NCBI GenBank assembly: GCA_015075625.1
Contig: JABTTZ010000002.1
Coordinates: 434,001 to 498,000 of the forward strand
DNA from: Anaerolineales bacterium
GTDB lineage: Bacteria; Chloroflexota; Anaerolineae; Aggregatilineales; UBA2796
Direction of reading: 5' to 3'
DNA: 64,000 bases
Of the stretch, positions 52,218 to 54,417 are shown piece after piece. How positions within the stretch are numbered: position 1 is the first letter of the stretch; each line of letters opens with the position of its first letter. Under the pieces are notes generated by a model that made no database searches, was not told the origin of the DNA, and was given only the letters and a program-made list of their open reading frames with translations. Both the position numbers and the translations under genes were made by a program.

Positions 52218-52901
52218 TTAAAACAGTGTCAGCTGCGTCGGGCTATCTTCGGCGGGTTTTTCCTCGCCCGCTTGTGCTGCCGTCTCGCTCCCTCCCCCAC
52301 CGCCGGACGCCTTCGCCAGCCGCGCTGTGTAATCTTTCACCAGTGTGGGGATTTTCTGGAAATCATCTTCCATTTGGGGCATGATCGCCATATTCCGCAA
52401 AACCGCCGCCGGATGAAACAGCGGGAGGTAATACCGCCCGTTCTCCCACTTCGCCTGCCCATGAATGGCGGTGATCTTCGCCTTCGGAAAAAACAAGCCC
52501 ATGCTAAAGCGCCCCAAGGTGACAATCACCTTCGGCTGAAGCGCCTCGATTTGTTTGAATAGATATGCCTCAGTACAGGTTGTCACTTCGTCGGGGAGTG
52601 GATCGCGGTTTTCCGGTGGGCGGCACTTCACGACGTTGCCGATGAACACCTGATCGCGGTTCAGCCCGATCTTCCCCAGAAGGGTTTCCAGAAGTTTTCC
52701 CGACTGCCCCACAAAAGGCAGCCCTTTCTGGTCTTCATGAAAGCCCGGACCTTCCCCGATGAACATGAGGTCGGCGTTGGCGGGACCCGCCCCTGGCACG
52801 GCGCGGGTGCGGTTTTTATGAAGCCCACAGGCGGTACAAGCATTCACCTGAACAGCAATCGCATCGAGGGCGGCTTTGCTCTCGGCTGGCGTCATAGACA
52901 T
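52218..52901 (-). CDS. Uracil-DNA glycosylase, family 4 (Fe-S)
   Basis: 227 residues from the ATG at 52901, which has AAGGAAGGG seven bases upstream. It removes uracil from DNA as the first step of base-excision repair. The four cysteines of the [4Fe-4S] cluster are visible (CTACGLHK near the N terminus, KCRPPENRD and a later TTC); motif A is GEGPGFHEDQKGLPFVGQSG and motif B is HPAAVLR. The tail after residue 190 is a Gly/Glu-rich linker ending in QLTLF-COOH, which fits the bacterial beta-clamp-binding consensus QL[S/D]LF. It lies 13 bp after the M32 gene and is probably co-transcribed with it. Confidence 0.93.
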   Translation of the reverse strand: MSMTPAESKAALDAIAVQVNACTACGLHKNRTRAVPGAGPANADLMFIGEGPGFHEDQKGLPFVGQSGKLLETLLGKIGLNRDQVFIGNVVKCRPPENRDPLPDEVTTCTEAYLFKQIEALQPKVIVTLGRFSMGLFFPKAKITAIHGQAKWENGRYYLPLFHPAAVLRNMAIMPQMEDDFQKIPTLVKDYTARLAKASGGGGGSETAAQAGEEKPAEDSPTQLTLF

Positions 52902-52914
52902 GGCGATCCCTTCC

Positions 52915-54417
52915 TTAAACCCCATAAATGGCGCTGTACTTATCCTTCAGATAGGCGACATAAGCACGGGCATTCATCGCCTCACCTGTTGCCCGCTGGA
53001 TCAGTTCCTTTGGCTCGAACTTTCGTCCGTGACGGTAGAGGTGTTCCGCCATCCAGCCGCGCAGCGTATCAAACTTTCCGGCGGCGATCTCTGTGGGGAT
53101 CGTTGGGTGGGCAGCCCGCGCCGCCTCGTACAACTGCACCGAGAGCAAGTTTCCCATCGAATACGTTGGGAAGTAGCCGAACAGCCCCGCCGACCAGTGA
53201 ATATCCTGAAGGACGCCGAGTGCGTCATCAGGGGGCGTAATCCCCAGATAGTCTTGATATTTCTTGTTCCAAGCGATGGGCAGATCGGCTACCTTCAACG
53301 CACCGGTCAGCAGCGCCATTTCCAACTCAAAGCGCACCATGATATGGAGGTTGTAGGTCACCTCGTCCGCCTCAACGCGGATGAAGGACGGCTCTACTTT
53401 GTTCACTGCGTGGTAGAAGGTGTCCAGAGCAACCGTCCCCAACTGCTCTGGAAAAGCCGCTTGCAACTGGGGATAAAAATGCGCCCAGAAGCCCCGGCTG
53501 CGCCCGACAACGTTTTCCCACAGGCGCGATTGACTTTCGTGAACGCCCAACGAGGTGCCACCGCCCAAACCGTAGGGGTCAAGCGCCTGTGCGCTGCCTT
53601 GCTCGTACATCCCATGCCCTGCCTCGTGGAGCGTCCCAAACAGGGCGGGGTTTAACCAATTCGCATCATAGCGCGTCGTGATGCGCACATCGTTGCAAGA
53701 AAAGCTGGTACAGAAGGGGTGTACAGCGCGGTCTTGCCGCCCCCGTGTGAAATCATACCCAAAGGTGGCCACGACCATCTCCGCAAAATCGCGCTGTTTG
53801 TCCTCATCATAGGCTTGGTGGAGGACGGCATCGCTCACCTTGTCTGCCTTTGCCCGAATCGCCGCCACAAGCGGGACAATCTCTTGGCGCAAGCCATCAA
53901 ACATGGCGGCGACATCGGCAGCTTTCACCCCCGGCTCGTAAACATCCAAAAGGGCATCGTAGGGGTGATCGGTGAAGCCGCGATAGTCTGCCTCGCGGCG
54001 TTTCATGGCGATCACCTGCTCAAGGGTAGGGGCAAAGGCTGAAAAGTCCTTCGCTGCGCGTGCCTTTGCCCAGACCTCGTGGGCGTGGGAGGTGAGCGCT
54101 GTCATCTCCGCCACAAACGCCGAGGGGAGTTTTCGTTCGTTTTCGTAATCTCGTTTGGTCACGCGGATCAGGCTGGCGTCATCACTGTCATAGTCCGCCC
54201 CGTTCAGCATTTTTTCTGCCTCGCCCAGAAGCGATCCTGTTTCTTCGGCAACAAACATCGCATGGGTTAGTTTTGCCAATGTACCTAACTGGCGAGCGCG
54301 GGACTCCCCTGCGCCAGAGGGCATATTCGTTTGCTGATCCCATCCCAACAGGGCCCCTGCCGAGCCAAGATTGCGCACATCGGCAAGGCGTTCTTTGAGT
54401 GTATCCAAAGGGGTCAC
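52915..54417 (-). CDS. Carboxypeptidase Taq-type metallopeptidase, family M32
   Basis: 500 residues, the normal M32 length. The HEAGH zinc motif is at 264-268 (HEAGHGMYEQG), with the third ligand Glu in SLGVHESQSRLWEN (about 294) and the family-specific HPFCTSFSCNDVRITTRY segment. It removes C-terminal amino acids from peptides in the cytoplasm. The start is a GTG with CAGGAG upstream. Upstream of the uracil-DNA glycosylase gene, divergent from aspS. Confidence 0.94.
   Translation of the reverse strand: MTPLDTLKERLADVRNLGSAGALLGWDQQTNMPSGAGESRARQLGTLAKLTHAMFVAEETGSLLGEAEKMLNGADYDSDDASLIRVTKRDYENERKLPSAFVAEMTALTSHAHEVWAKARAAKDFSAFAPTLEQVIAMKRREADYRGFTDHPYDALLDVYEPGVKAADVAAMFDGLRQEIVPLVAAIRAKADKVSDAVLHQAYDEDKQRDFAEMVVATFGYDFTRGRQDRAVHPFCTSFSCNDVRITTRYDANWLNPALFGTLHEAGHGMYEQGSAQALDPYGLGGGTSLGVHESQSRLWENVVGRSRGFWAHFYPQLQAAFPEQLGTVALDTFYHAVNKVEPSFIRVEADEVTYNLHIMVRFELEMALLTGALKVADLPIAWNKKYQDYLGITPPDDALGVLQDIHWSAGLFGYFPTYSMGNLLSVQLYEAARAAHPTIPTEIAAGKFDTLRGWMAEHLYRHGRKFEPKELIQRATGEAMNARAYVAYLKDKYSAIYGV

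Follow-up and report, generated by a model that had tools for sequence, protein, structure and literature searches.

A family 4 uracil-DNA glycosylase of the Chloroflexota with a conserved C-terminal motif predicted to bind the DnaN sliding clamp

The human uracil-DNA glycosylase (UDG) UNG2 belongs to UDG family 1. Its PCNA site lies in the N-terminal region (PMC9266487), and the likeness to UNG2 that a sequence-only reading had proposed for the enzyme described here proved to be loose, as a clamp site in the tail of a UDG, a predicted one in the present enzyme, is shared by both, whereas the UNG2 tail is N-terminal, its enzyme family is a different one and its clamp is eukaryotic. The archaeal family 4 UDG, described as binding PCNA in Sulfolobus solfataricus and Pyrobaculum aerophilum (PMC4894655, citing Dionne and Bell 2005), is a closer parallel than UNG2, with the same enzyme family placed on a sliding clamp, although archaeal PCNA and its motif differ from bacterial DnaN and QLxLF. 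Nei2 of M. tuberculosis, also a bacterial base excision repair glycosylase, has been reported to bind DnaN with its activity raised (PMC9690074), and PMC11109965, besides restating that Nei2 binds DnaN, describes a NucS activity on G/U that depends on the clamp; Nei2, however, is of another family and acts on another lesion, and its clamp motif is called peculiar in PMC9690074, whereas that of the present UDG is canonical. The same pentapeptide, QL[S/D]LF, is found in PolC, where QLSLF is described as almost universal (PMC3919608), and in DnaE, but these are polymerases, and here it stands on a glycosylase. The family 4 UDGs of Thermotoga maritima and Sulfolobus tokodaii (PDB 1vk2 and 4zbx) share the fold of the present enzyme at 40–46% identity in the structure match, but their chains lack the long tail and stop no more than a few residues from where the core alignment ends. 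The table of PMC9690074 lists Nei2 and XthA on the bacterial clamp, UNG2 for PCNA only, and no bacterial UDG. None of the titles and abstracts among the open-licence literature matches listed describes a clamp motif on a bacterial UDG, and with modest confidence such an enzyme seems to be unreported so far.

The gene lies on the minus strand of the window, the whole stretch of 64,000 nucleotides that was analysed, and its features are as follows, with residue numbers counted from the ATG at 52925.

52218..52901, minus strand: gene of the family 4 UDG, likeliest start ATG 52901, frame open from ATG 52925
52909..52916, minus strand: AAGGAAGG, probable ribosome-binding site, the letters read directly
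52338..52868, minus strand: catalytic core, residues 20–196, with GEGPGFHED and HPAA motifs and Cys30, Cys33, Cys101 and Cys117
52236..52301, minus strand: variable linker rich in Gly, Ala, Glu and Pro, residues 209–230, from structure model and alignment
52221..52235, minus strand: QLTLF, residues 231–235, predicted DnaN-binding motif, from sequence and conservation

Counted from its first ATG, the frame (52218..52925) comprises 235 codons and ends in SPTQLTLF followed by a TAA stop. The ATG at 52901 is nevertheless the better start, as in the sequence-only reading, because AAGGAAGG, probably the ribosome-binding site, stands 7 bases 5' of it and because the orthologues in relatives have their starts near that position.

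The assignment of the product as a UDG, already made in that reading, was borne out and narrowed by profile searches, according to which the product of 52218–52901 is a family 4 uracil-DNA glycosylase: NCBIfam TIGR00758 (UDG family 4) scored 181.7 bits against a cut-off of 125.3, and Pfam UDG gave an E value of 1.2e-34 with 119.9 bits against a cut-off of 24.3. The archaeal equivalog model NF040953 matched below its cut-off (200.4 vs 250), and an identity as UdgX was rejected, TIGR03914 reaching 113.3 bits, under the cut-off of 189.95. The predicted structure matches the family 4 fold (4zbx, E 1.5e-20; 1ui0, E 1.1e-19). G-E-x-P-G and H-P were conserved in 33 of 33 orthologue rows of the alignment. 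The four cysteines stand at the positions that we take, from family 4 structures, to be those of the [4Fe-4S] ligands; Cys30, Cys33 and Cys117 were present in 33 of the 33 rows and Cys101 in 30, with His in the other 3, which are the orthologues L029, L053 and L055. The PF03167 search of the genome returned only one other match, a 173-amino acid protein that we read as a short MUG/TDG-like enzyme, and the family 4 enzyme is therefore probably the chief general UDG of the genome. The neighbours of the gene in the window are an M32 carboxypeptidase, an aspartate-tRNA ligase and a cytochrome P450; in 29 relative loci none of them turned up within 1.5 kb, whereas M32 and P450 were recovered at the window's own locus, and no operon argument can therefore be drawn from them.

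The placing of QLTLF as the last five residues after a flexible linker agrees with the end of the frame and with the structure model, in which most of the core has a pLDDT of 95–98 and a tail of about 25 residues, including the Gly/Ala/Glu/Pro linker, a pLDDT of 54–71; linker residues 209–230 are thus modelled as probably disordered. Clamp-binding peptides have been given the consensus QL(S/D)LF (PMC9690074) and, more widely, Q-phi-x-[L/M][F/L] (PMC13254535). At the level of DNA, a pattern for QLxLF plus stop had 5 matches in the 4.68 Mb genome, 4 of them with a true stop, namely the UDG gene, a 505-codon helicase-C frame, a 149-amino acid protein and a 25-codon frame, and a control with the reversed pattern had 13 matches; the QLxLF-stop pattern is therefore not enriched as such, and the weight falls on conservation.

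Conservation in orthologues, which the sequence-only reading had named as the check, with absence from close orthologues as what would refute it, was found in three sets of sequences. Among relatives, 61 genomes including the source genome were searched, 60 had a match, and 54 full-length orthologous frames were read, leaving aside G003, which had no match, G052 and G057, truncated at contig ends, and G043, G047, G055 and G058, which gave the distant paralogue class only. Strict QLxLF ends 50 of the 54 frames, the source frame included, and the count reaches 53 with relaxed forms, the remaining four tails being QLSMF and QMSLF (relaxed), QMGLFD and QKTLF. The named loci, which are the 80 best of the 581 relatives in the genome_contigs scan and are labelled Chloroflexota in nearly every case and Candidatus Gracilibacteria in one, include Chloroflexus, Viridilinea, Chloroploca, Oscillochloris, Thermoflexia, Ardenticatenia and Sphaerobacter, and 79 of these best 80 carry the motif (63 strict, 16 relaxed, 1 none). 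An even draw of 151 genomes from the phylum gave 140 with a match at E 1e-20 or better and 11 with no match; 139 frames from 137 genomes were read, excluding the source genome and omitting G115 and G188, whose only matches lay at E about 1e-21. Strict and relaxed forms together accounted for 127 of these 139 frames, comprising 63 strict frames, 33 with a relaxed form at the C-terminus and 31 with one inside the last 14 residues, while 12 failed this filter.

When pooled, the tails were counted as distinct by their last 30 residues (n = 249), because the relatives and the 80 named loci are overlapping sets, and even so the counts are not independent events, because the orthologues are related by descent. 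Exactly QLxLF ends 161 of the 249. A wider filter, which asks for Q-x-x-[LMFI]-[FLMWI] among the final 18 residues, is passed by 243, and 227 agree with Q-phi-x-[L/M][F/L] when phi may be L, M, I, V, A or T. The wider filter was used for the last two counts; the first filter had missed L176 (QLDLF plus ten residues) and had scored QTSMF, QKTLF, QPTLF and QRSLF as none. Six of the 249 tails lack the motif over their last 18 residues, of which one ends beyond the fetched stretch (L194 has no stop within it) and one has RQLSLSW near its end; in seven more of the 249, motif position 2 is T, K, P or R. Shuffling each tail for 200 rounds produced 0 strict QLxLF, and the conserved motif at the C-terminus is not due to chance.

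The genome encodes DnaN in a single copy, with 102 identities to E. coli DnaN over 365 columns. At the positions that we take to form the peptide pocket in E. coli, L155, G174, R176, P242, N320, Y323, V360, M362, P363 and M364 are kept, and five substitutions were seen, with A for T172, Y for H175, M for L177, L for V247 and P for S346, two of which (L to M and V to L) are conservative; judged by this alignment, the pocket is largely conserved. The DnaE of the genome contains GQLGMFGD as its sole match to the motif pattern searched, with QLGMF near residue 956 in a frame of 1319 residues, in keeping with the position after the helix-hairpin-helix region of the polymerase described in PMC3919608. 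A search with PF00817 for a Y-family polymerase as a further clamp client found none in the source genome.

The 149-amino acid protein, which ends in QLSLF, is encoded outside the window at C2:660851-661300 (locus L066, 1501-1950, minus strand) and had no Pfam match, with relatives in 33 of the 61 genomes. Its family combines a conserved N-terminal F..EW.ACL.AHY, a variable acidic linker and then the Q-motif; in 18 of 20 loci, that of the source genome included, the C-terminus has the form Q[LIA]x[LFM]F, one of the other two having a frame that runs off its contig and the other an internal stop, and from its sequences it looks like an unnamed clamp-binding family. The 505-codon helicase-C frame (L063, 1501-3018, minus strand) ends in QLALF, with PF00271 just above cut-off, and is possibly another clamp client. 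The structure obtained for a side protein, P0008, had a mean pLDDT of 52 and was unusable.

The reading that we favour, with a probability of roughly 0.86 on sequence evidence, is that the tail of the family 4 UDG binds the DnaN pocket and would hold the enzyme on clamps at or behind replication forks for uracil repair. The last five residues would dock in the hydrophobic peptide pocket of DnaN, and the flexible linker of variable length would allow the catalytic core to range over adjacent DNA, with the enzyme held on clamps at the forks or left behind them. Uracil misincorporated from dUTP or arising by cytosine deamination would be excised there, and its excision would start base excision repair. 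Docking of the tail in DnaN is the part strongly suggested by the sequences, and from it we infer the placement at forks and the benefit for repair. The motif might also bind DnaN for another use, for example in loading the enzyme on clamps left on finished DNA or in handing over abasic sites to clamp-bound Pol I and ligase; clamps serve many repair partners, and M. tuberculosis Nei2 and XthA are described as using DnaN (PMC9690074). Such a role would be a variant of the favoured reading that the sequence data fit equally well, and is less likely than not.

The form and position of the motif bear on whether the C-terminal peptide could instead be a tag for another partner, such as a protease adaptor or a PDZ-like domain. 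In 243 tails, position 2 is L in 208 and M in 26, position 4 is L in 212, M in 22 and F in 8, and position 5 is F in 229 and L in 11, tolerances that are close to those given for clamp motifs in PMC13254535. The motif stands at the very end in 216 of the 243, as such a tag would have it, but in 27 of the 243 it is followed by 1 to 10 residues; a free C-terminus is therefore not needed, and the trailing residues are easier to reconcile with clamp binding than with a C-terminal tag. The substitutions moreover obey the clamp consensus (Q kept; L/M; L/M/F; F/L), in agreement with the clamp motif originally proposed for QLTLF, and the same type of peptide is internal in DnaE of the same genome, which together make a tag for another partner very improbable.

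Differential conservation was also observed along the protein, with mean pairwise identities in the 33-row alignment of 0.61 for the core, 0.23 for the linker and 0.87 for the motif. Among 104 distinct proteins with a strict motif, both Gln codons and both Phe codons occur in it, each Leu is encoded by all six of its codons, and every one of the three stops is found after it; with all synonymous codons in use, it is therefore the protein sequence that is conserved and not the DNA, and on these alignments the motif is under purifying selection across the phylum. Distant UDG-superfamily paralogues of the same phylum had the motif in 0 of 16 (10 from the phylum draw and 6 from the relatives, L058 among them being cut by a contig end), and 12 homologues outside the phylum, 9 from plasmids and 3 from phages, had a C-terminal motif in none. 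A Stanieria plasmid UDG (L302, 299-949) is without a C-terminal tail, and its N-terminus, MIKQTQLF, is a possible clamp motif; an argument from N-terminal motifs was dropped, as it rests on this one of the 12. Three of 80 viral-contig loci passed a similar filter, two of them being one family 4 UDG on two IMG/VR contigs (L306, 700-1305, and L307), with the tail TKQMELF and 47% identity to the query, adjoining a frame that resembles a SIS-domain protein, while the third, in a 419-residue frame, looks like chance. That the tail is a functionless extension kept by common descent would agree with all tail-bearing bacterial sequences that were read coming, as far as labels show, from one phylum, besides the two viral contigs, but it is scarcely credible beside a motif so much better conserved than its linker and saturated with synonymous changes.

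Uracil repair is thus probably tethered to DNA replication in the source bacterium, because the tail is kept across the phylum and resembles the tag that holds proteins on the clamp. A wider view, that replication-coupled uracil repair extends through the Chloroflexota, with the main UDG a permanent clamp client that acquired the bacterial motif where its archaeal counterparts acquired the PCNA motif, and forming here the chief route of uracil removal, is put forward tentatively and with somewhat less than even confidence. Uracil removal is already tied to the clamp in eukaryotes and archaea, and the present tail suggests that one glycosylase family was linked independently to the two types of clamp. 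Replication-coupled uracil repair would become directly testable in bacteria, given one small enzyme whose canonical motif is conserved across a phylum.
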